Positions 13,047 through 56,486 of a DNA stretch of 64,000 nucleotides are shown here, one piece after another. The DNA lies in the NCBI GenBank assembly GCA_013415695.1, contig JAAEEP010000011.1, positions 1 through 64,000 on the forward strand, read 5' to 3'. A program made the translations under genes and the position numbers. The stretch comes from Methanomassiliicoccales archaeon. Lineage in GTDB: Archaea > Thermoplasmatota > Thermoplasmata > Methanomassiliicoccales > JAAEEP01. How positions within the stretch are numbered: position 1 is the stretch's first letter; every line of letters begins with the position of its first letter. The notes beneath the pieces are model-generated. The model did no database searches. It worked only from the letters and a program-made list of their open reading frames with translations, and was not told where the DNA came from.

Positions 13047-13292
13047 GTGTGCCTGGCCATTCCCGGAAAAGTGGTTTCGATCGAGGGCAAGATCGCCGAT
13101 GTCGATTTTGGAGGAGTCAACAAGAAGGTCAATCTTTCCATGGTGGAGGTGTCCGTGGGCGAATGGGTGATCGTCCATGCTGGATTCGCCATTCAGACCA
13201 TGGATGAGCAGGAAGCCCTTGAGACCCTGAAACTCTGGGAAGAGCTTCTTGCCCAAGAAGAAGACTTCAACGACGAATATCCCCTTGCTTGA
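13047..13292 (+). CDS. hypC: Hydrogenase maturation chaperone HypC/HupF
   Basis: An 81-residue chaperone that carries the Fe(CN)2CO unit between HypD and the large subunit of [NiFe]-hydrogenases. The essential N-terminal Cys2 and family motif MCLAIPGKV are present, followed by the OB-fold (ADVDFGGVNKKVNLSMVEVSVGEWVIVHAGFAI). The start is GTG 13047, 3 nt after GGTGAG and fixed by the Cys2 requirement. No hydrogenase or other hyp gene lies nearby, so it implies a hydrogenase elsewhere. Its last 26 nt overlap the convergent methyltransferase gene, and a T6 tract follows the stop. Confidence 0.93.
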   Translation: MCLAIPGKVVSIEGKIADVDFGGVNKKVNLSMVEVSVGEWVIVHAGFAIQTMDEQEALETLKLWEELLAQEEDFNDEYPLA

Positions 13293-22337: not shown

Positions 22338-25300
22338 TTAATTCGGGCGAAGGCGCAATCCCATTATCACGACCACTCCTAAGCCCATCAGGGCGATGAT
22401 GACCAGGAACGGTGTCCAGTCCTGTGGATCATCTCCCTCATCGACTTGCTGTGATTCCACCGCAACTTCGATGGACACGAGGTTGTTGTCCTCGCTGATC
22501 TCGACAACCCCAGCATCGACCTGGAATGCGATCGTGTGATTTCCTACCGTCGGCACCCAATCGAAAACGAAAGAGGCGTTCGATCCGCTCTCCAAAGAGA
22601 AGGTCGTTGTGCTCTCTACCAAACCGTCCAGTGTGAATACGAGGATGGCTTGTTCCACATCCAAGGAACCGGAGTTAATCACCACGATCGAGATGGTCAC
22701 TGCCTCACCCGCGACCGGGGTCTGGTCCATCTGGATGGAATCATTTCCCAAGACGAGTTCGGATACCCGTATCCATATCTCCTGTTGAAACAGGGAGGAG
22801 TTATCATTCTCGTCTATCACTATGAGTGAGACCGTGTAATAACCCTCTAGAGTGAAGGTGTGAATTGGATTGACTTCGGTCGAGACCTGACCGTCTCCGA
22901 AGTGCCAATGATGGGATATTGAATTTCCATCTGGATCATACGATGTGCTGCTTAGATGAATCATATATGGTGAAGAGGGATCCAAGGACCAGGAGAAGTT
23001 CGACACTGGAGCCAGGTTGAGCACATCGAGCACATGGGAGATATTGGACTGGAAGCCTTGATCATCGACGACAGACAGTGTGATCTGATAGACGCCTGGT
23101 CTATCGTAAGTATGGTTGGGGGAGGGCGTGTGACTTCCGGTTCCGTCGCCAAAACTCCAGGACCAGTTGACAATGATCCCGTTCTGGTCCAGGGAAAGGT
23201 CATGGAAAGAGACCTCCATAAGGCTGTAGACCTTTTCAGGGGAGATGATGAAATTCGCGATGGGAGAGTTATTCTCCACCCTCAACTCCATCATTGTGAT
23301 GTTCCAATCATCGGCATCATCCCATACGGTCAGACTAATAGTATAATTCCCAGCCTCGGTGAATGAGTGGACAGGATAGCGCAGATTGGAAAAACTACCG
23401 TCTCCGAAGTCCCAGTACCATTCCATGATTGCCCCATCCGAGTCCTGAGACAGGTCTATGAAGCTCACTTCCTCTCCTGAGAATAATAAGGAGGGATTGA
23501 CATCAAAAAGAGCAGTCGGTGGCCTGTTGGTAGCCTGTATGACGATCGAGGCGCTGGCATCTTCTCCGGAATCGTCAATAACCTCCAAGGTAACGTGATA
23601 AGAACCCCATTGCTGGAATGAATGCGTGGGATTCCTTAGTGAGGAGTATGTTCCATCGCCGAAGTCCCAGCTCCATCCAACGACCTCCCCATCAATATCG
23701 TAGGAGAGATCGTGGAAGTAGATCTCCTGTAAAGTCAGCGGATCGGTTGGAGAACAAGAGAAATCGGCCACTGGAGCTTCGTTTCCCACAACAATGCTGG
23801 ACCGACTAGAACTTGTTCCCCCGCAATCGTCCCATACAGTCAATTTGATAGAGTATGCTCCTTTTTCAGAGTATGAGTGGCTTGGATTCCGCTCCGTGGT
23901 GTTCGTTCCATCACCCATCTCCCACAACCAAGATACGATTTGACCATCATGATCGTATGATCCATCGGTGAACGATATCGTCTCATTCACCTCAGGGAAA
24001 CTTGGTGAATAGTGAATTACAGCAACGGGAAGACGATTTTGGACTGTAATTATCTTAGAAACGGAGCCCCACTGACGATTGTTGTCCATTACCCAAAGTG
24101 TGACGGTGAAGTCCCCGCTTTCCGAGTAGGCGTGGAGCACTTCATCACCGTATTCCATACTGCCGTCCCCAAGATCCCAAGTTCTATTGAGAATCTCACC
24201 GTCGGTGTCCCAGGAGTTATCTACGAACCTCACCACATCCCCAGAGTAGGGAGAAGATGGGGTGGAATCGAAAAGAGCCTCGGGTGGTGAGTTGAGTTCT
24301 GTGCTCGGAAACATCAGCGGATAGCTATCTACGCATATAGTCCCAGGAATGTCATAGGGGTCATCCCCAATGCCATCAGCATCGGGCCAGTTCTGATCGG
24401 GTCCAGAATACCTATCATCAGCGGTGTAGGAGTCCCAGAAATTACCACCCTGTTCATAGGAGCCGTTGAAAGCAGCGTTTGAATCGCAAAATACATCACG
24501 GCTGTTCGTTGTGAAATCGTTCCCGATGATGGTGCAGTTGCTGGATCCTACTATCCTCATACCCGCAAAGTTGTCGTGAAAGGAGCAGCTCTCGACCACG
24601 ATCGATGTTGAGTCGACCAGAAGAAGACCCTCTCCGTTGCCATGAAGGTCAAGTTTTGAAAGAGTTCCATTAGAGCATGATACGATCGCAATATAACCCA
24701 GTGAAGAGTTCGCTTCTATCGTGAAATCATCCTCACCCATCATGTAGAGAACCTCCCCAGAGCTGACCTGGTTCCCTCTCACAAAATGTATGAAATGCGA
24801 AAGCTCAGTTCCATTGAAGGAAAGATCTCTGGTGCTATCGATGAGCGTGTTGTTGACGAGTGTGAGATTCGTTGATCGGTCCACGTTCAGACCTTCGTCA
24901 CAGTTGAGGATGGAGCAATTCTCAATTGATAGATCTCTTGAATCTTCAATACTCATCCCGGTGGAGCAGTCCTCTACGACGATGGAACGAATCGACCCTG
25001 TAGAATTCTGGATGATCATCGCAGCATTTACCTGAGCCGCAACAAGGACATCGATGTTCACACCGGTGGAGTTGGCGACGTGAACTCCTATCTCACTATC
25101 CTCAAATGTGGCATTGAAAATCGTGGGGTGACTTCCTTCGATGTATAGTCCACCGCCGGTGAAGGAGGAGTTTTCAAGGTTCAAGGTACCTTGGACCAAC
25201 ATAATATGGAGTTTGGAATCAAGCGTTTCCAGGTTAGCCCCCACGACCTTCAGATTGGATCCTTCTTCACAGACTATGGCGAGATCGTTTTCGATATTGA

Positions 25301-27605
25301 AATGGATGGAGGAATTGATTATCTCCAAGTTGCCCCGAACTTGAAATGAGGGATACTGGGATGTGGAATTGATGAATAAGGTGGAATTGATTATCCTCAA
25401 AGTCCCGTTCTCCTCAATTGAGAAGAAGAAGTCCTGATAAGATACGACATCACGAATCTCTTCTAGTCCTGTAACCCTGCATCCTACTTCCACCTGGAGT
25501 GAGAGCTGGTCATTGGAAGTCCAGTTGTCCGATGTGAGATTTGTCCTGACGGTCAACGTCTGAATCCCAGGATTTGAGGGTGTCCAGATTAGATTCGCCT
25601 CAGCGGTTCCGTTCATGGGAACATCAACATTGGTGTAAGAGACGACATCCCCTCCGATCTCCAGCTCGACCGGTATCCCGAACTCGTCAACCCTACCGAG
25701 ATTGCCTATCAACGCATGAACGCTGCATTCCTCCCCTGCGAATGACTCATCTATTTCGACATCGAGAACGATTGCATCATGCACCCTCTCTTCCACGAAG
25801 TGGATCTGGGCCTCAGGATCACCGAGAAGATTGAGGGTCATGAAGCACCACCTCATGGACCCCGTGTCAGAGATCATGGGGACAAGGTCGGTCTTTGCGT
25901 CGACAAGGGCGGGACCAAGACCTCGTATGTTCTCCTGGAATATGGCATCGAAGAACTGTTTATCGTACTGCTGTGAAGATCCGTCAGTGTCACCAGGAGA
26001 ATACCAGCCCTCTCTGGAGTTCACCAGCATGGCAACCGCACCATGTTCCGAGCACAGGAACTCCTCGGCGATGGTGTCCACATTATGGTCAAATCCGCCT
26101 ATGAAACACGCCTGTGAGAAGAGGATGAAGTACTGGTCGTTGCTCAGAGAATTCACGCTGGATATTGAAAGATCTGCAAAGCTATCGTAATCCCCGTGTC
26201 CCATGTGGTTGATCAGTTGAACACCATCATTCATCGCTGTGATGAATGCCTGCGAAGAGAAGGTGCTATCCTTCTCGTAGAGAGTCCTCACCTCAATCTC
26301 CAGGTCTCCTTCCGGAAATGTCTCATCTCTGATCTCATCCTTGTAGTCAGCTCCCCAGGTTGGTTTGCTGTCCAGCTTCTCTGCAACTAGAAGAACGGAG
26401 TTCAGATACGGCGAGTCGATAGCCTTCTCATAATCGATGACTTTGTTGACGAAGTTGACGGCCTCTTGAGGAGAGTCTACTGTGGCTCTGCCCACATTGA
26501 CCTCCAACAGGAGATCGGCCTCGTCCCCTAGGCTTCCCCCGCCTTGGTTCCCCCCTTCTCCGTAAATACCATCATTGTCATCATCCCAGCTGCCGTCCAG
26601 ACCTGCGAAGTATGCATCTGCGGGAATATAGCTGGACAGGCTGTGTATCACTCTCACTTCCCTGCAGGGCAGGATCTCTACATCGCCGGCTAGCAATACA
26701 TAATCAGTTCCCTTGGTCTGGTAATAGTCAATGATGAAGTTGCGGATCTGGGTTTGGGTATCATTGCCAGTGTCCTTGTGGCTTTGAGGATCGCCCCAGT
26801 AAAGAGGATTGGAGGTTATTGACTCAATGGTCACAATCTCCCCAGTAATATTCTGAAGGTAACGGGAGTAGGAGCCCCTTTCCATCTTCCATTCGAGCAA
26901 AGGCTCGAAAGATGACTCCAGCGATGAGGATGTGATGATGACATACTCTGCTGTGGCCGTTAAGGAATCGAGTGCAAGACCGATGCTGTTCATGGTTCTC
27001 TCACTACTGTCGGTAGCTAACTCTTGATCTAGTGGCACAGCCTCTAGAGTTAGCTTCGCCTCCTTGGCATATGTCAAATAATTAGTGACCGAGTCGTAGA
27101 TCGCTGGGTAAACCTTGACCAAGGCATAGGAAGAACCGTGCTGCATCTGCACGCCCACGAATTCGACCCTTTCATCAGGGAAAAACCTCTGAGGTGCGAT
27201 TGCTTTTGAATGAATGAATTTGAAATCATCCTCGCCCGAAATCGGAATTTCCTCTATGTTTGAAGCAATAGGATCAAACGGACCAATCGGCTCGAGATCG
27301 ATGAATTCAGCATAAACCTCAGTGACCGAGAAGCCAGTTGGAATTGGTACCATTACACTCTCAAACGGAAGAAGCGGCTCCCCAATCCCTCCATAAAGTG
27401 GGAGATCTTCCATCACAACCTTCCATATCCCTTCCTCGCTCTCAAATGATATTTCGGGAAAAGTAAGATCGTCCCCCCATACCCAAGATTCAGCAGAGTT
27501 TTCAGCTGTTCCTGCTGAGAAAGATGTGCCCAAGCTCGATAGGAGCACGATAGCTGATAGAGACACAACCAGAATTGCGACATGGGCACTCTGCCTCAGA
27601 GGCAT
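22338..27605 (-). CDS. Large cell-surface C25 (gingipain-like) peptidase with beta-helix and PKD domains
   Basis: A 1755-residue secreted, membrane-anchored protein. In order: a signal/transmembrane segment (HVAILVVSLSAIVLLSSLG, about residues 8-27); a C25-type propeptide and catalytic region with the Cys-His dyad His470 (GHGD) and Cys500 (SQACFIG); a CARDB-like domain (about 615-715); a parallel beta-helix of Asn/Ser-rich repeats (about 730-1110); six PKD domains, each with a variant of the W-x-F/M-GDG core (about 1115-1635); a second CARDB-like domain (about 1640-1725); and a C-terminal transmembrane helix (FLVIIALMGLGVVVIMG). Many N-x-S/T sites suggest N-glycosylation. It probably digests extracellular protein. 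ATG 27605 is preferred over TTG 27623. Confidence 0.9.
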   Translation of the reverse strand: MPLRQSAHVAILVVSLSAIVLLSSLGTSFSAGTAENSAESWVWGDDLTFPEISFESEEGIWKVVMEDLPLYGGIGEPLLPFESVMVPIPTGFSVTEVYAEFIDLEPIGPFDPIASNIEEIPISGEDDFKFIHSKAIAPQRFFPDERVEFVGVQMQHGSSYALVKVYPAIYDSVTNYLTYAKEAKLTLEAVPLDQELATDSSERTMNSIGLALDSLTATAEYVIITSSSLESSFEPLLEWKMERGSYSRYLQNITGEIVTIESITSNPLYWGDPQSHKDTGNDTQTQIRNFIIDYYQTKGTDYVLLAGDVEILPCREVRVIHSLSSYIPADAYFAGLDGSWDDDNDGIYGEGGNQGGGSLGDEADLLLEVNVGRATVDSPQEAVNFVNKVIDYEKAIDSPYLNSVLLVAEKLDSKPTWGADYKDEIRDETFPEGDLEIEVRTLYEKDSTFSSQAFITAMNDGVQLINHMGHGDYDSFADLSISSVNSLSNDQYFILFSQACFIGGFDHNVDTIAEEFLCSEHGAVAMLVNSREGWYSPGDTDGSSQQYDKQFFDAIFQENIRGLGPALVDAKTDLVPMISDTGSMRWCFMTLNLLGDPEAQIHFVEERVHDAIVLDVEIDESFAGEECSVHALIGNLGRVDEFGIPVELEIGGDVVSYTNVDVPMNGTAEANLIWTPSNPGIQTLTVRTNLTSDNWTSNDQLSLQVEVGCRVTGLEEIRDVVSYQDFFFSIEENGTLRIINSTLFINSTSQYPSFQVRGNLEIINSSIHFNIENDLAIVCEEGSNLKVVGANLETLDSKLHIMLVQGTLNLENSSFTGGGLYIEGSHPTIFNATFEDSEIGVHVANSTGVNIDVLVAAQVNAAMIIQNSTGSIRSIVVEDCSTGMSIEDSRDLSIENCSILNCDEGLNVDRSTNLTLVNNTLIDSTRDLSFNGTELSHFIHFVRGNQVSSGEVLYMMGEDDFTIEANSSLGYIAIVSCSNGTLSKLDLHGNGEGLLLVDSTSIVVESCSFHDNFAGMRIVGSSNCTIIGNDFTTNSRDVFCDSNAAFNGSYEQGGNFWDSYTADDRYSGPDQNWPDADGIGDDPYDIPGTICVDSYPLMFPSTELNSPPEALFDSTPSSPYSGDVVRFVDNSWDTDGEILNRTWDLGDGSMEYGDEVLHAYSESGDFTVTLWVMDNNRQWGSVSKIITVQNRLPVAVIHYSPSFPEVNETISFTDGSYDHDGQIVSWLWEMGDGTNTTERNPSHSYSEKGAYSIKLTVWDDCGGTSSSRSSIVVGNEAPVADFSCSPTDPLTLQEIYFHDLSYDIDGEVVGWSWDFGDGTYSSLRNPTHSFQQWGSYHVTLEVIDDSGEDASASIVIQATNRPPTALFDVNPSLLFSGEEVSFIDLSQDSDGAIMEWYWDFGDGSFSNLRYPVHSFTEAGNYTISLTVWDDADDWNITMMELRVENNSPIANFIISPEKVYSLMEVSFHDLSLDQNGIIVNWSWSFGDGTGSHTPSPNHTYDRPGVYQITLSVVDDQGFQSNISHVLDVLNLAPVSNFSWSLDPSSPYMIHLSSTSYDPDGNSISHHWHFGDGQVSTEVNPIHTFTLEGYYTVSLIVIDENDNSSLFQQEIWIRVSELVLGNDSIQMDQTPVAGEAVTISIVVINSGSLDVEQAILVFTLDGLVESTTTFSLESGSNASFVFDWVPTVGNHTIAFQVDAGVVEISEDNNLVSIEVAVESQQVDEGDDPQDWTPFLVIIALMGLGVVVIMGLRLRPN

Positions 27606-27667
27606 GGCTACAATAGAACACAATCCGGCTAGAAATAGATTGGCTCATGAATTGAATCGGCTGGCCC

Positions 27668-27997
27668 TCATGCTTCGAATCGTATGCATAGTGTATCCAG
27701 CTTCTTCACCAGATTCCTGGAGATCATCCCTGTCTCCAACCAGCAGGCATTGAATACCCCGCTGGGTACAAGGCAGGTAGGGGTTAAGAAGGCTTCAGCA
27801 GCCTTCTCGAGTATCTTCGAGTCCCTGAACTCTGAGTAATCCTGTATTCCCAGCTCCTTTATCAATTCCGCGTATCGGGCAACGTCCTCGCAGGTGGTTT
27901 CTATTCTTACTTGGAGGGTACCATCCCCCGAATCCTCGACCTCGATCGAGGTCTCGTGGGAGCAAAGGGGCATGTCGACTCTAACCTTGGATGTCAT
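27668..27997 (-). CDS. Small cysteine-containing protein (DUF6951-like)
   Basis: A 109-residue protein with spaced Cys residues: MPLCSHETSIEV near the N-terminus, ETTCEDVARYAELIKEL in the middle, and TPTCLVPSGVFNACWLETGM near the end. From memory this matches DUF6951, small proteins of methanogens and relatives that look able to bind metal. ATG 27997 begins the conserved part; the frame to 28048 adds 17 residues. It is the fourth gene in line after the FecCD-type importer (gap 62 nt), so a role in handling the imported metal or cofactor is inferred. Confidence 0.6.
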   Translation of the reverse strand: MTSKVRVDMPLCSHETSIEVEDSGDGTLQVRIETTCEDVARYAELIKELGIQDYSEFRDSKILEKAAEAFLTPTCLVPSGVFNACWLETGMISRNLVKKLDTLCIRFEA

Positions 27998-28059
27998 GTT
28001 ATCATCCACTTTTGAATAAGCAACTGGGTATAAGTCCTTGATGCTCAACGGTCTGGATT

Positions 28060-28857
28060 TCAGAGATCCTTGCCGTTATTGCAGACGCTGATGATGTTAA
28101 CCCTATGGGCGCCTATCTCTTCGTCATACTTCACATATGCTCGTATCTTGAACACCGCCTCAAGATTCTCGGATGTGAGGACTTTTTCCACTTTACCCGC
28201 TGCCCTGATGGAGCCCTCGCTGAGCATGATCACGCGATCGCAGTACCTGGCAGCCAAGTCGAGATCGTGGGAAACCATTATCACGGTGAGTCCTTCACTT
28301 TTGGCCAAGTCTTGGACCAGATCAAGTACCTCAAGCCGATGGTTGACGTCCAAGTGAAGAGTGGGTTCATCCAGAAGCAGGACCTTAGGCCTCTGTGCCA
28401 GGGCACGGGCAATGATGACCCTCTGCCTCTCACCCCCGCTTACTTGATCTATCTCCCTGTCCGCTAGCCTGAGGACGTCTGTCATTCGCATGGCCCTCTC
28501 AACGATCTCCATGTCCTCTTTGGATTCCCGCTGGAATGTCTGTAGGGCAGGTGAACGACCCATCATCACAACGTCCATGACAGAGAACGGGAATCTTATC
28601 TCGTTGTTCTGGGGAACGACACCGACCTCAAGAGCGATCTCCTTGCGTGATAGCTCCTTCAAGTTCTTTCCCTCGAGAAGCACGGTGCCCAATCTTGGCT
28701 TCAGGACGCGGTTGATGCACTTCAGCATGGTGGTCTTGCCCGAACCATTGGGACCTATGATGCCCACCATCTGCCCTCCGCACACCTGAAATGAGATATC
28801 GGATAGCACGTCCACGCTATTGTAGGCGAAGCTTATTCCGTCCACCTCGAGTCTCAC
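28060..28857 (-). CDS. FecCD-family ABC importer, ATP-binding protein
   Basis: A 265-residue ATPase of the BtuD/FhuC type: Walker A GPNGSGKTT, signature VSGGERQRVIIARAL, Walker B VLLLDEPTLHLD and switch His in MVSHDLD. It drives uptake through the adjacent permease. The start is GTG 28857, read just after the permease stop (TAATGTG), with GGGGTGG as Shine-Dalgarno site. The substrate could be cobalamin, Fe-siderophore or nickel complex; the operator upstream favours metal control. Confidence 0.93.
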   Translation of the reverse strand: MRLEVDGISFAYNSVDVLSDISFQVCGGQMVGIIGPNGSGKTTMLKCINRVLKPRLGTVLLEGKNLKELSRKEIALEVGVVPQNNEIRFPFSVMDVVMMGRSPALQTFQRESKEDMEIVERAMRMTDVLRLADREIDQVSGGERQRVIIARALAQRPKVLLLDEPTLHLDVNHRLEVLDLVQDLAKSEGLTVIMVSHDLDLAARYCDRVIMLSEGSIRAAGKVEKVLTSENLEAVFKIRAYVKYDEEIGAHRVNIISVCNNGKDL

Positions 28858-28858
28858 A

Positions 28859-29899
28859 TTACCACCCCGTCAGACGCCGCCTTCTTCTCAGAAGATAAAT
28901 GAAGAAGGGTGCGCCCATTAGCGCTGTTATTATGCCCACGGGGAGTTCCTCCGGGGCCATTATCGTTCTAGCTAGAGTGTCCATATATATCATGAAGATT
29001 GCCCCCACCATGAGGGTGGTGGGGAGCAGTATCCTGTGATCAGGTCCCACGAAGATACGCATGATATGTGGGACGATCAGTCCCACGAAGCCAATGATGC
29101 CGCTGACGGAGACAGCCGCAGCGGTCATTAGGGAAGAGGCCACCAACACCACAATGGTCACCTTTTGAGTGTCTACCCCGAGGTTCACCGCGTGTTCCTC
29201 TCCTATCATCATGGTGTTTAGATCCCTAGAGATGATGAATACCATGACCGATCCCGCTACAATGAACGGTATGATCACTAAGACTTTGGTCCAGTCCGCA
29301 CCCCATAACCCTCCCATCATCCAGAAGACGATAGAAGCGAGCTGGTCACCGGAAAGGTACTTCATGAAGGATACCAAGGCGGAGAAGAACGCACCTACTG
29401 CTATCCCAGAGAGAAGCAGTGTCTCCACCGGCGTACGTCCATTCACCTTCGAGATAGAGTAGACCAGGAACAGAGTGAGAAAGCAGAAAACGAAGGCCAT
29501 GGCCGGAACCGCGAAAGCACCAGTGGCAAAACTAACCCCAAGCACGATGGCAAGAGAAGCCCCGAACGCTCCGCCGGAGGATAGACCAAGGATGTAAGGG
29601 CTGGCCATCGGGTTCTTGAAGAGACCTTGCATTGCCGCTCCAGAGAGTGCAAGTGCGGCTCCCACCAGACCGGCCATCATGATCCGGGGAAGTCTGATGT
29701 CAATGATTATGGTCCTATTGTTTCCCGTTCCCTCTCCACCCAGAAGTATTCTGATAACCTCACTAAAGGAGATATTGACCATCCCAATAGATATCGTGAC
29801 AATAATTGAGATGAACAGCGCCAACACTAGAAGGACGAGAATCAACGTCCACCTCGAAAGCTTATCCGAGTACAGTGTGGTGAGATCGGGCTCTTCCAT
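28859..29899 (-). CDS. FecCD-family ABC importer, permease
   Basis: A 346-residue polytopic membrane protein with about ten helices and FecCD hallmarks: RLPRIMMAGLVGAALALSGA followed by MQGLFKNPMASPYILGLSSG, and GFVGLIVPHIMR. It forms a homodimeric channel with the ATPase encoded 1 nt downstream. The substrate-binding protein gene lies 79 nt upstream. Confidence 0.93.
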   Translation of the reverse strand: MEEPDLTTLYSDKLSRWTLILVLLVLALFISIIVTISIGMVNISFSEVIRILLGGEGTGNNRTIIIDIRLPRIMMAGLVGAALALSGAAMQGLFKNPMASPYILGLSSGGAFGASLAIVLGVSFATGAFAVPAMAFVFCFLTLFLVYSISKVNGRTPVETLLLSGIAVGAFFSALVSFMKYLSGDQLASIVFWMMGGLWGADWTKVLVIIPFIVAGSVMVFIISRDLNTMMIGEEHAVNLGVDTQKVTIVVLVASSLMTAAAVSVSGIIGFVGLIVPHIMRIFVGPDHRILLPTTLMVGAIFMIYMDTLARTIMAPEELPVGIITALMGAPFFIYLLRRRRRLTGW

Positions 29900-29978
29900 T
29901 TACCCCTGCCTCTTGGGTCCGGTGAAAGGTTTCCTCCTATTAATGTAAAATGGAAAAATGAAAGTGGTTTGTCCTGTC

Positions 29979-30899
29979 CTATACCAAGTCAGGATGGAAC
30001 CAGTGGGCAAATGTCTGAAGAGCCTCGACGATTCTAGGAGTCACCGTGTTCAGATTCTGATCAATCCTGTAGATCTGGTTGTTCTCCACGGCATCGATGG
30101 CATCCCAACCCTCCAAGGATGCGATATCCTGATTGGTCTTGAGACTCTGATCCTCAATAACGATGACGTCTGGGTTCACATCGATTATGTACTCGCTGCT
30201 TGGCTGCGGATACGTGGTCGTGGCGTTTCCGTAGATATTGATGCCACCAGCCATCTCGATGAGGTCATTGGTTATGCTTCCTAGACCTATGGATTTGCCT
30301 GAGCTGAGCTCAAAGTAGACCTTGGGCTTTTCCTCCTCGGTCAGGTTGGAGAGGGAACTTGATATATCATCTATGATCGACTCCATCCCTGAAACGAGGT
30401 CCTGAGCTGCTTGGATTCTTCCGGTGGCATTCCCTATGGACTCGATCGTCCAGAGTATCTCCTGGATGTTTCCAGGGTAGTATACTAGGACCGGTACTCC
30501 CAACCCCTCAAGGGTCTCTATGGTATTGGTCTGATATCCCCAGCATATCACACAATCTGGGTCCAGAGCCATCACCGCCTCCTGATTGAGGGTGTAACCG
30601 CTCCCTACATTGATCTTTTCCAAGGCTGCTGGAGGATAGTCGCTGTACTTGTCAACCCCGACAACCTGATCTTGAGCCCCTATGGAGAAGAGAACCTCAG
30701 TGAAAGACCCTCCTAGGGAAATAATCCTCTCAGGATACTTGGGGATGGTGACATTCTCACCTCTCCAATCGGTTATCTCTACAGTATCTCCAGTTCCATC
30801 TTCATTGTTATTATTCAAATAGATGAAGCCGCCCACGACACCCGCCATAATAACTATTATGATGATGGCGATTGCGGCCATCGTACGATTGTTTGCCAT
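29979..30899 (-). CDS. FecCD-family ABC importer, substrate-binding lipoprotein-like protein
   Basis: A 306-residue extracellular binding protein anchored by an N-terminal transmembrane helix (AAIAIIIIVIMAGVVGGFIYL), then a short Asn/Asp linker and the BtuF/FhuD fold: PERIISLGGSFTEVLFSIGA, VGVDKYSDYP, VICWGYQTNTIETLEGLGVPV. It captures the ligand for the downstream permease. It lacks an obvious lipobox Cys. The promoter carries two nested inverted repeats. Confidence 0.9.
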   Translation of the reverse strand: MANNRTMAAIAIIIIVIMAGVVGGFIYLNNNNEDGTGDTVEITDWRGENVTIPKYPERIISLGGSFTEVLFSIGAQDQVVGVDKYSDYPPAALEKINVGSGYTLNQEAVMALDPDCVICWGYQTNTIETLEGLGVPVLVYYPGNIQEILWTIESIGNATGRIQAAQDLVSGMESIIDDISSSLSNLTEEEKPKVYFELSSGKSIGLGSITNDLIEMAGGINIYGNATTTYPQPSSEYIIDVNPDVIVIEDQSLKTNQDIASLEGWDAIDAVENNQIYRIDQNLNTVTPRIVEALQTFAHWFHPDLV

Positions 30900-30902
30900 T
30901 AC

Positions 30903-30966
30903 ATTACCCCTATTTCCATTTAATCCGTAACACTATTAACATATATTGTGTTACGAAAGGGGTAAT
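30903..30966 (-). promoter_or_regulatory. Nested inverted repeats at the importer promoter, NikR-like half-sites
   Basis: Inner repeat: CGTAACAC (30926-30933), 14 nt, GTGTTACG (30948-30955). The 14-nt spacer holds the minus-strand TATA box (AATATATG). Outer repeat: ATTACCCC (30903-30910) and GGGGTAAT (30959-30966); the inner-side arm also works as the Shine-Dalgarno region. The GTGTTAC half-site and 14-nt spacing resemble reported NikR sites (from memory of Geobacter NikR). Confidence 0.6.
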
Positions 30967-31147
30967 AGTGCTACTCTTCTTAAACAATTCGCATATTTAT
31001 TAGCAAGAACTTGAAAAAAGGTATTAAGAATGCGCAATTTTGGAGTATGCAGGACGATGTTGGTGTCTCTGATTGACCGGCATTTCGCCCCGATCAAGAA
31101 AAGGTATCGCCAGAAAATCTTAAGTAATGAACTTCATTGAGCGTACT

Positions 31148-53468: not shown

Positions 53469-53852
53469 TCAGAAGCTGACGAATTGTATATGCTCAAAAT
53501 GATCTTCACCACGGAAAGTGTCTAACATCCTCCTGATGTCCTCGGCCGCTCCTTTCACGATGAAGACCTCAAGACATTTGCTATTCTCTAGATGGGAGTG
53601 TATCTGAGTGGAAACCTGATCCTGGAATTCATGCCGCATCTCGTCCAGCTTATTGGAACGATGTGAATCATGAACAATAACTAGGACTCCCTCGACCTCT
53701 CCCCTCAATTCGTCTTTATTCCTCATTTCGATCTCGGCCGAGCGCAAGCATGCCCTTATGGCCTCACTCCTTCCAGTGAGGCCTAAAGACTCCTGGATGC
53801 GCTCGAGAAGTTCTATGTTCTTCTCGGTCAGGGAAACACTAACAACGGGCAT
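53469..53852 (-). CDS. nikR: NikR-like metal-responsive regulator
   Basis: A 127-residue ribbon-helix-helix repressor with ACT-like metal domain. The N-terminal RHH (VVSVSLTEKNIELLERIQ, then RSEAIRACLRSAE) is followed by a metal domain whose likely nickel ligands match E. coli NikR: His in MRHEF, two His in IHSHLENSKC, and that Cys. A TATA box (minus strand, 53883-53890) lies 30 nt upstream of the start, so it has its own promoter. It sits 59 nt downstream of znuB. Confidence 0.88.
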   Translation of the reverse strand: MPVVSVSLTEKNIELLERIQESLGLTGRSEAIRACLRSAEIEMRNKDELRGEVEGVLVIVHDSHRSNKLDEMRHEFQDQVSTQIHSHLENSKCLEVFIVKGAAEDIRRMLDTFRGEDHFEHIQFVSF

Positions 53853-53911
53853 CTGGGCTCACCTTCTGATGTTGTTAAGAACTATATAAAGTTTGGATTG
53901 AATGTCGACGA

Positions 53912-54739
53912 TCATCTTCCCAACCTACCATATGCCACTGCCAAGAGGAAAACCCCGACGCCGGTGAACACTATGATGCCGCTGGCAGCTACATCGAAGA
54001 GGGCTGAGATGAAAATGCCTAACGTGGTAGTCAGTAGTGCGAGAAATATGCTGGCCAACAATGTCTTCCTGAATGATTGATTTAGTTGGAGGGCGGACAG
54101 TCCGGGAAGGACGAGGAGAGCAGCTACCAGTATTATTCCCACGACCTTGATGGAAATGACTATTGTGACCGCTACCAGGACATTGAATGCTACAGCCAGA
54201 GAGGTCACGGGTATTCCATTTAACCGGGCAGCCTGCTCGTCGAAGGTTATCGAGAGTAGCTCCTTGTAGAATATTCCCATGATGGTAAGCGATATCATGG
54301 CCAGAATGGCGGTCACGACCAGCTCGTTGGTGTCGATGGTGAGGATAGAACCGAATAGGTAGCTGAATAGATCCACGGTAAAACCTCCAGCCGCACTTAC
54401 CACGATCAATCCTAGTGAGAATCCTGCTGCCAGCATGACTGCCATAGCGGCATCTGAGTGAGCAAGTCCCCTGGTTCTCATGTAGGCAATCAGAAGAACT
54501 GAGAATACGGCGAATACCAGGGCGGTGAGTATTGGCTCCACGCCCAGGAGAATTCCAACTGCTATTCCCCCGAATGCGGTATGGGCTACACTGTCCCCTA
54601 TCATAGACTCTTTTCTCAGAACGATCAAAAGTCCCACAACGGCGCAGGTCAAAGCCACTAGGGCGCCCCCTATGAGAGCATACTGGAAGAATTGATAACC
54701 AAGGAGCCTCACGATCTCCTCGATGAAAAAATCAGACAT
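53912..54739 (-). CDS. znuB: Zinc/manganese-type ABC importer, permease
   Basis: A 275-residue membrane protein of the ABC-3 family with about eight helices; DSVAHTAFGGIAVGILLG, then SDAAMAVMLAAGFSLGL, and VGIILVAALLVLPG are family blocks. ATG 54739 overlaps the ATPase stop by 8 nt; the longer frame to 54826 lies inside znuC. Confidence 0.92.
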   Translation of the reverse strand: MSDFFIEEIVRLLGYQFFQYALIGGALVALTCAVVGLLIVLRKESMIGDSVAHTAFGGIAVGILLGVEPILTALVFAVFSVLLIAYMRTRGLAHSDAAMAVMLAAGFSLGLIVVSAAGGFTVDLFSYLFGSILTIDTNELVVTAILAMISLTIMGIFYKELLSITFDEQAARLNGIPVTSLAVAFNVLVAVTIVISIKVVGIILVAALLVLPGLSALQLNQSFRKTLLASIFLALLTTTLGIFISALFDVAASGIIVFTGVGVFLLAVAYGRLGR

Positions 54740-55514
54740 TCCTGAAGGCCCCCTTGCACTCGTGTTCGTGAAAAGCAAAATGAAAATGCTCCCCATAGGC
54801 CTTTTTAAGGAGCCCCTCAGCATCAAGATCTGGAGTTATCGAAGCTGAGTGAACATGACGGTTAACACAAATGACCTTGTTCATCCTGCAGAAGACTGCT
54901 GTTAGATCATGTGAGACCACAATGATAGTGGTGCCGTTCTCAAGGTTCAGGTTGCTGAGCAGTTTGTAGAACTGCTCAGTGGTCTCGGCATCCACCCCTG
55001 AAAGTGGCTCGTCAAGTAGTAGAAGCTCGGGGTTCCTGACCAGGGCCTTGGCGACGAACATGCGTTGTTTCTCGCCACCAGACAGCTGCCCGATCCTGCG
55101 GTCGGCGAGGGAGGTGATACCCATGAATTCCATGGCCTGGTCCACCTTCTCCCAGTCCTCCTGCTTTAATCTACGACCGAGATTCCGACCGCTAACTTTT
55201 CCAAGACCCACCATCTCCCTGACGGTCATTGGGAAGTGATGGTCGAAATTTATCGCATTCTGTGAAACAAACGCGATTCTATTCCAATCTCTGAATTCGT
55301 CGATTTTCTGTCCAAAGAGGAGGATGTCTCCATCCTGTCGAGGTAGAACGCCGAGCATAGATAGGAGCAAGGTTGTCTTCCCACCCCCATTTGGGCCGCA
55401 GATACCGATATAATCGGATTTTTCTACAGTGAAATTAGCGGATTCGATTACCTTTGAATTCGACCTTGTTACGGTAAGGTTTCTGATTTCGATGATCCTC
55501 TCTTTCTCACTCAT
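54732..55514 (-). CDS. znuC: Zinc/manganese-type ABC importer, ATPase
   Basis: A 260-residue ATPase with Walker A GPNGGGKTT, signature LSGGEKQRMFVAKAL, Walker B LLLLDEPLSGVD and switch VVSHDLT. His-rich C-terminus (EHFHFAFHEHECKG) may bind metal. It lies between znuA and znuB. Confidence 0.93.
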   Translation of the reverse strand: MSEKERIIEIRNLTVTRSNSKVIESANFTVEKSDYIGICGPNGGGKTTLLLSMLGVLPRQDGDILLFGQKIDEFRDWNRIAFVSQNAINFDHHFPMTVREMVGLGKVSGRNLGRRLKQEDWEKVDQAMEFMGITSLADRRIGQLSGGEKQRMFVAKALVRNPELLLLDEPLSGVDAETTEQFYKLLSNLNLENGTTIIVVSHDLTAVFCRMNKVICVNRHVHSASITPDLDAEGLLKKAYGEHFHFAFHEHECKGAFRNV

Positions 55515-55553
55515 TTATTCCCCTCATCCATTCTTCGGAACTGCTTTGTGAAA

Positions 55554-56486
55554 TCAACCACCCAACCCCTGAACAAGGTTTTCCAGGTTGGCTTCCATCT
55601 GTTCGATGTAGTCCATACTTTCGGCTGGGCCGGTCATCAAGTAAAGCTTGAGGACGTCTACGGAAATGAGTGTTCTGTCTTCCACCTCCGATTTGAGGGT
55701 CTGGATATAGTCATCGGAGAAGACGGGATCAAGGAACAGAGTGTATATCCCTTCATCCACCATTCTGTCAGCGAGGTCTGCGATCGTACTTGGACTTGGC
55801 TGTTCATTTGCCGATATGCCCAAGACCCCCTCTTGCTCGAATCCATATCGTTCAGCAAGATAATTATATGCGGTGTGTGTGACGAAGATTGTGTGGAACT
55901 GAGTTGATGCCAGTCTATCAAGGTATCGATCGTCCATCTCCTGTAAAAGCGAGTCAAGGTTGGCCCACCTCTGACCGTAATAGCTGGCATTTGCACCGTC
56001 AGCCTCCACAAAAGCCAGGTAAATTGCCTCCGCCTGCTTTCTTGCCAAGAACGGGGATATCCAGGTGTGTGGGTCCAGGCCACCGTGATCGTGATGATCG
56101 TCCTCGTGGCCCTCCTCCAGATTTATCTCAGCAGTGGTTTCAAGGATGATCTTGGGATTGTCGTCAATTATGGGGATAATTTCGTTCTCGATCCATGGTT
56201 CCAGCCCTGCCCCGTTGTAGATGAAAACATCAGCCATATCTGCTTGGAGAATGTCCGAGGCTGATGGGTACCAGGAATGGACCTCCATGTTGTATGGGAT
56301 GAGCGTGCTGACAGTCACATTCTCCCCCCCTATTCTCTCAGCAAGGTACGCCAATGGATAGAACGAGGTCACGACCTTAAGCTCAATGGAATCATCTGCG
56401 GGGGAGGCCACCAACGAAGCAGCACCTAATGTAGCTAGAACGATGACTACACCAATTAGGACCACCCCGAACTGTTTACCGTTCAT
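55554..56486 (-). CDS. znuA: Zinc/manganese/nickel-type ABC importer, metal-binding protein
   Basis: A 310-residue cluster A-I binding protein. An N-terminal hydrophobic anchor (VVLIGVVIVLATLGAASLVA) is followed by VVTSFYPLAYLAERIGG, metal His in MEVHSWYPSASD, a His-rich loop (GHEDDHHDHGG) and a late THTAYNYLAERYGF His, plus LFLDPVFSDDY. The loop favours zinc; nickel remains possible because of the adjacent NikR-like gene. The promoter has AT-rich repeats. Confidence 0.92.
   Translation of the reverse strand: MNGKQFGVVLIGVVIVLATLGAASLVASPADDSIELKVVTSFYPLAYLAERIGGENVTVSTLIPYNMEVHSWYPSASDILQADMADVFIYNGAGLEPWIENEIIPIIDDNPKIILETTAEINLEEGHEDDHHDHGGLDPHTWISPFLARKQAEAIYLAFVEADGANASYYGQRWANLDSLLQEMDDRYLDRLASTQFHTIFVTHTAYNYLAERYGFEQEGVLGISANEQPSPSTIADLADRMVDEGIYTLFLDPVFSDDYIQTLKSEVEDRTLISVDVLKLYLMTGPAESMDYIEQMEANLENLVQGLGG

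Follow-up and report, generated by a model that had tools for sequence, protein, structure and literature searches.

A Fec-type importer operon behind a predicted NikR-type operator suggests a nickel uptake route in a Methanomassiliicoccales archaeon

We analysed a 64,000-nt stretch of a Methanomassiliicoccales genome (positions 1–64,000 of contig JAAEEP010000011.1, assembly GCA_013415695.1; the whole stretch is hereafter called the window) and found on its minus strand, at 27668–30966, a four-gene operon that probably encodes a nickel or nickel-chelate importer of the BtuCD type, with the canonical NikR protein of the same genome (encoded on another contig, C3) as its likely repressor. A first-pass annotation of the window, made from the sequence alone, had proposed that this importer may carry nickel, and we consider this probable: sites equivalent to the predicted operator in its promoter occur at nikM, at a cfb-like operon and at Fec-type importers of related genomes, NikM and NicO were not found in the genome, the organism encodes methyl-coenzyme M reductase, and a separate Fec-type system is linked to cobalamin genes. 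Given the NikR-type site in its promoter and the recurrence of such sites in related genomes, the pump is probably the nickel uptake route of the cell. Altogether, the nickel reading is well supported for the regulation of the operon and less so for its cargo.

The promoter contains the palindrome CGTAACAC-N14-GTGTTACG exactly as first annotated, ending 26 nt ahead of the ATG of the binding-protein gene. When the window was scanned allowing up to three mismatches, this pair was the sole match (mean 0.03 in shuffled sequences), and the genome-wide scan that had been suggested as a check found the only exact GTAACAC-N14-GTGTTAC of the 1,992,406-base genome (G000) in the importer promoter. The NikR consensus of the deltaproteobacteria is GTGTTAC-N13/14-GTAACAC (Rodionov 2004, PMC545781), and the reversed order, GTAACAC-N13/14-GTGTTAC, was predicted in the same study for Desulfotalea psychrophila and for the region ahead of nikK in D. 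vulgaris (PMC545781). The earlier attribution of GTGTTAC to Geobacter NikR thus holds for the half-site itself, but the order of the two half-sites is opposite to the Geobacter consensus and corresponds to the reversed Desulfotalea form. With two half-sites of a known type at a distance of 13 or 14 bp in the promoter, and with the same type of site at recognised nickel genes of related genomes, the interpretation of the window site as a reversed NikR motif, i.e. a predicted NikR-type operator, is supported. Half-sites with no more than one mismatch are found at −75, −55 and −34 within 200 nt upstream of the binding-protein gene; the outermost of them, a third phased half-site, had been overlooked. 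By itself its spacing is within chance for the window; an array of three half-sites is also present at nikM of G054. As to the statement that the palindrome surrounds the TATA box, AATATATG does lie within the spacer, but its role as the TATA box is putative, and several orthologous promoters have the operator slightly downstream of the apparent TATA box.

We compared 61 genomes, namely G000 and 60 others of the same order (G-numbers denote genomes, L-numbers loci and g-numbers genera). The placement of this order as Methanomassiliicoccales is very probable: the named records that contain DUF6951 relatives belong to Thermoplasmata and Candidatus Methanomethylophilaceae, and G000 carries an mcr operon. 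The same importer was identified in ~30 relatives, usually in the vicinity of panD and hisS. A pair with at most two mismatches within 150 bp is present in 10 of 20 orthologous promoters, as opposed to a mean of 0.035 and a maximum of 1 in dinucleotide shuffles; scanning these 20 promoters with spacers of 8–21 yielded three promoters with a pair at 13, eight at 14 and at most one at any other spacing. Before the binding-protein gene an inward pair is present in G037, G017 and G040 (N14, exact) and in G034 and G021 (one mismatch); tandem pairs occur in G028 (one mismatch) and G004 (N13, exact); the pair of G008 has two mismatches. In the syntenic orthologue of G054, one half-site is a good match and the other is degenerate. 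The genomes of genus g13 are not independent of each other; G000, G028, G004 and g13 represent different genera belonging to three families.

Across the order, the reversed N13 form with at most one mismatch was found at 24 sites compared to 0 for the backwards control. Fifteen of these 24 sites precede nikM, Fec-type importer operons or a methyltransferase-FecCD operon: they are located directly before nikM in G040, G012, G037, G043, G027 and G054, before Fec-type importer operons in G047 (adjoining larC), G006, G019, G009, G044 and G053, before Fec-type operons with a CooC/ParA-like ATPase as the first gene in G030 and G058, and before a methyltransferase gene near a FecCD gene in G025. Furthermore, an N14 site in G035 (L167 8325–8352) precedes a methyltransferase gene followed by NifH, CbiX, Mur-ligase and nitrogenase-type domain genes, a cfb-like set as would be expected for cfbC, cfbA, cfbE and cfbD of F430 synthesis. 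Pairs in the opposite orientation are found before nikM in G002, G030 and G056; one in G009 is located ahead of the gene of a Fec-type binding protein, and one in G025 ahead of a second copy of nikR. As a negative control we searched up to 250 bp upstream of 31 canonical nikR loci and found no site with two or fewer mismatches; autoregulation of nikR was thus discarded as a candidate, the second nikR copy of G025 being the exception. The pairs of genus g17 (G041, G047, G053, G055, G029) were left out of the nickel count, as they lie between convergent genes beside topA and resemble terminator hairpins. These GTAACAC-N13/14-GTGTTAC pairs (L005, L007, L008, L077, L088) are located 2.5–4 kb from nikR and are perhaps terminator hairpins.

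Outward, inward and tandem arrangements of the half-sites are all seen before nickel genes in the relatives. Both GTGTTAC and its complement GTAACAC fit GTRWYAC, a self-complementary pattern with the core TRWYA, and TRWYA is mentioned as a dyad motif for the NikR of Helicobacter pylori (HpNikR), the half-operators of which are two helical turns apart (PMC5385501). A symmetric ribbon-helix-helix (RHH) dimer on each near-palindromic half-site would explain free orientation combined with fixed spacing, and we infer that the reading of GTRWYAC by such a dimer is the cause of the orientation freedom.

Which protein would bind this operator? Searching G000 for the NikR_C domain returned two genes, C3:144461 (107 bits) and the gene at 53469–53852 of the window (61 bits). 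The former (L090 16797–17246), located near hypA-hypD, is a canonical NikR: it aligns end to end with the solved NikR structure 2bj1 (133 bits), keeps all four nickel ligands and has the TRIG-V/I-S strand that is invariant among the canonical NikR proteins of the order. The latter had been put forward as the regulator of the importer, an assignment that we do not retain. Although it is encoded in the same window and keeps four metal ligands in the alignment (the His-His-His-Cys high-affinity site), it is the weaker of the two paralogs, it carries PVVSVS in place of the TRIG-V/I-S strand, without the Arg of the canonical DNA-contacting strand, and it stays below the NCBIfam equivalog cut-off for NikR (57.8/175 bits, TIGR02793). 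It also ends a znuABC-type operon (53469–56486), and the genes of related proteins have znuABC, ZIP-type or P-type ATPase genes as neighbours (some named by eye). The promoter of this operon contains a different motif, TTAATAA-N15-TTATTAA; among nine znuA promoters, the match to TTAATAA/TTATTAA pairs peaks sharply at a spacer of 15 bp, with 8 summed mismatches versus 36 in shuffles. The divergent strand, the znu linkage and the znuA motif suggest that this paralog is probably a zinc-type regulator acting on an operator of its own, likely TTAATAA-N15-TTATTAA, and we judge it very improbable that it controls the importer.

Pfam searches of the window confirmed the annotation of all four genes, which follow each other from 30899 down to 27668 in the order binding protein, FecCD permease, ATPase and DUF6951 (Table 1). 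Peripla_BP_2, FecCD and an ATPase within one operon constitute the make-up of a class II (BtuCD/FecCD-type) ATP-binding cassette (ABC) importer, and the intergenic gaps of 79, 1 and ~60 nt make a single transcript likely.

Table 1. Features of the importer locus and the NikR-like paralog in the window
Feature	Position	Strand	Evidence
Substrate-binding protein (Peripla_BP_2), hydrophobic N-terminal segment	29979..30899	-	Pfam 128.8 bits
FecCD/BtuC-type permease	28859..29899	-	Pfam 337 bits
FecE/BtuD-type ATPase	28060..28857	-	Pfam ABC_tran
DUF6951 protein (PF22263)	27668..27997	-	Pfam 66.5 bits, cut-off 27
NikR-type operator pair CGTAACAC-N14-GTGTTACG (predicted)	30926..30955	-	Exact match; equivalents before orthologous operons in relatives
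Third phased half-site GTAGCAC	30968..30974	-	13 bp upstream of the pair; 1 mismatch to GTAACAC
NikR-like paralog, last gene of znuABC-type operon	53469..53852	-	NikR_C domain

The best NCBIfam models for the importer are of the BtuC/BtuD types, and the best solved relatives of its binding protein are B12-binding and haem/iron-complex-binding proteins, with a B12-binding protein at the top. Since the organism probably also uses corrinoid methyltransferases, we considered cobalamin or another corrinoid as the cargo, in which case the palindrome would have another meaning, but find this quite unlikely. The importer misses the equivalog cut-offs for BtuC, BtuD and BtuF (340/461, 287/537 and 85/234 bits with the best NCBIfam models) and reaches none of the equivalog cut-offs that NCBIfam sets for B12, haem and siderophore systems, no cobalamin riboswitch was found with Rfam, and the operon is flanked by panD, hisS and the gene of a large PKD-repeat protein, with no adjacent cobalamin genes. 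Moreover, G000 has only two FecCD permeases, the second of which adjoins cobS, cbiZ and cbiB in a cobalamin-salvage cluster, so that the B12 role is probably already filled; the recurrence of the NikR-type operator at nikM and cfb-like genes likewise speaks against a corrinoid. The neighbouring PKD-like repeat protein (22338–27623, same strand) is large and of a secreted type, and its gene follows that of DUF6951 at a distance of 44 nt.

Methanogens need much nickel, e.g. for F430 and hydrogenase. G000 encodes methyl-coenzyme M reductase (MCR; mcr operon), HypA, HypD and HypC, the last of which (13047–13292) had already been named in the first-pass annotation as a sign of a nickel need. Neither CbiM/NikM nor NicO was found in G000, the genome completeness being 99.6%. 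These findings also bear on whether the operon imports iron or siderophore complexes, or metal chelates in general, with NikR merely cross-regulating it. Such a role would fit a family that is mostly concerned with iron, siderophores and haem; HpNikR also controls iron-type transporter genes (PMC5385501), and NiuBDE of H. pylori carries cobalt and bismuth in addition to nickel (PMC5140060). However, G000 has no recognised NikM or NicO nickel uptake apart from this importer, and the sites in the relatives concentrate on nickel functions (nikM and cfb-like genes, with one Fec operon adjoining larC), which makes iron or a general chelate an unlikely cargo.

The sole other GTRWYAC pair with a spacing of 13 or 14 in G000 (C7:53920–53946; L093 5921–5947) is located before a radical S-adenosylmethionine (SAM) gene. 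In G004 and G008 the closest compared homologues of this gene (45–47% identity) belong to the importer operon, as do more distant ones (36%) in G027 and G042; thus, the two predicted targets of G000 match a single operon in these relatives. A narrower form of the nickel reading is that nickel enters not as simple Ni2+ but as a tetrapyrrole or nickelophore, i.e. F430 or a chelate made or processed by the radical SAM protein or a methyltransferase. BtuCD-type importers usually carry large chelates, which agrees with this idea, as do the radical SAM genes in the importer operons of the four relatives, the NikR-type site before the radical SAM gene of G000, and the presence of SAM methyltransferases with other NikR-site Fec operons, joined in G053 by two nitrogenase-like genes. 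Yet no nickelophore biosynthetic cluster was found, the radical SAM protein has no assigned substrate, and the precedent of NiuBDE needs no tetrapyrrole, so that we regard import of such a compound as possible but put it forward only tentatively. The SAM-dependent methyltransferase genes recur within or beside NikR-site Fec-type operons at L163, L160, L162, L237 and L156, and CooC/ParA-like ATPases are found at L165 and L166; the two nitrogenase-component-1-like genes of G053 are found behind the NikR-site Fec-type importer at L169 1149–6274.

The fourth gene of the operon, as judged from its homologues, probably starts at ATG 27997 rather than at TTG 28048. Three cysteines of the DUF6951 protein, C29, C53 and C92 (numbered from the TTG start), are invariant in 38 aligned sequences. 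The window-type DUF6951 gene closes the importer operon in G037, G017, G034, G040, G016, G027, G003, G042, G051 and G005 and is close to the operon in further relatives. G000 has four DUF6951 copies, among them a paralog downstream of mcrA in the mcr region (L091 5901–6242), and copies in other genomes lie beside ACR3/ArsC-like arsenic genes, an ArsP-like permease or MtaBC (named by eye). In G035 and G027 (L095, L102), paralogs occur in arsenic-operon-like sets together with ACR3, ArsC and an Fe-S protein. A contig scan with the DUF6951 protein returned three paralogs only, in Thermoplasmata/Methanomethylophilaceae records. Searching the solved structures with its sequence gave no match, an AlphaFold model computed from four sequences was unusable (mean predicted local distance difference test score of 46), and a literature search found no paper on DUF6951. 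Thiol-based metal handling fits the conserved cysteines; the function as a nickel chaperone proposed in the first-pass annotation would be just one option. Going further, the order might use BtuCD-type importers to take up a complex nickel chelate (a nickelophore, F430 or a precursor) that the co-regulated radical SAM protein or methyltransferase makes or processes, with DUF6951 as a new thiol metal-handling family serving the importer and, via its paralogs, MCR and arsenic detoxification; taken as a whole, we find this rather doubtful.

In the mechanism that we propose, the class II ABC importer would bring in nickel, more probably in chelated form than as Ni2+, and under sufficient nickel the canonical NikR would repress the operon. 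The two half-sites, spaced by about two helical turns, would each be bound by one RHH dimer of a NikR tetramer, which would thereby block the core promoter. Repression would be lifted when nickel falls, so that binding protein, permease and ATPase would be made together with the small, Cys-conserved DUF6951 protein, for which metal handling at the cytosolic face is possible.

Several observations weigh against this reading. The site is absent from 10 of the 20 orthologous promoters, including those of genus g8 and of the syntenic G005, and the link between operator and importer is thus not universal. Within the order it is the N13 spacing that is enriched; the overall number of N14 pairs is not above the backwards control, and for this reason only the positions of N14 sites are used as evidence. 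No canonical NikR was found in the fragmented assemblies of G021, G034 and G043, three genomes that carry sites. The search for nickel uptake in G000 covered NikM and NicO; importers of the Opp family (NikABCDE) were not searched for. NikR binding, repression and the nickel cargo are predictions from sequence, and a nickel-regulated importer could carry another cargo, e.g. cobalt or F430.

NikR-controlled nickel import by a Fec-type system is already known: NiuBDE of H. pylori is a nickel ABC importer (PMC5140060), and H. pylori fecD-fecE is repressed by NikR (PMC5385501). The operon described here resembles these systems in combining a Fec-type permease, an ATPase and a binding protein under NikR control, a likeness of composition and regulation in which both NikR control and nickel are predicted on the archaeal side. 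The H. pylori system differs in being bacterial and in its operator, TRTTA/TAWTA with a 15-nt spacer. To our knowledge, neither DUF6951 nor a radical SAM protein accompanies it; the archaeal form, which has both of these partners but no NikM, is new. The half-site, the spacing and the reversed orientation are shared with the deltaproteobacterial NikR regulon (PMC545781), but there the sites precede nikMLKQO or nikK, whereas the archaeal site precedes a Fec-type importer and varies in orientation among relatives. NikMNQO, an importer of the energy-coupling factor type, carries the same NikR-type sites in the relatives but is unrelated in architecture, and its NikM was not found in G000. BtuFCD belongs to the same protein families; the window importer differs in having no equivalog-level match, no riboswitch found and no cobalamin neighbours, and it is another locus of G000 that fits the B12 role.

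Little is known about nickel uptake in methanogens beyond the predicted NikMNQO (PMC10617489), and a Fec-type importer preceded by a NikR-type site, in a nearly complete methanogen genome without NikM, would fill this gap. The regulon evidence allows importers misnamed as 'B12/siderophore' systems to be reassigned, and half-sites that are free in orientation would be a simple and testable property of a symmetric RHH dimer on GTRWYAC. Finally, a nickel NikR next to a znu-linked paralog with its own operator would be a clear-cut example on which to study changes in both the metal and the DNA specificity of metal sensors.

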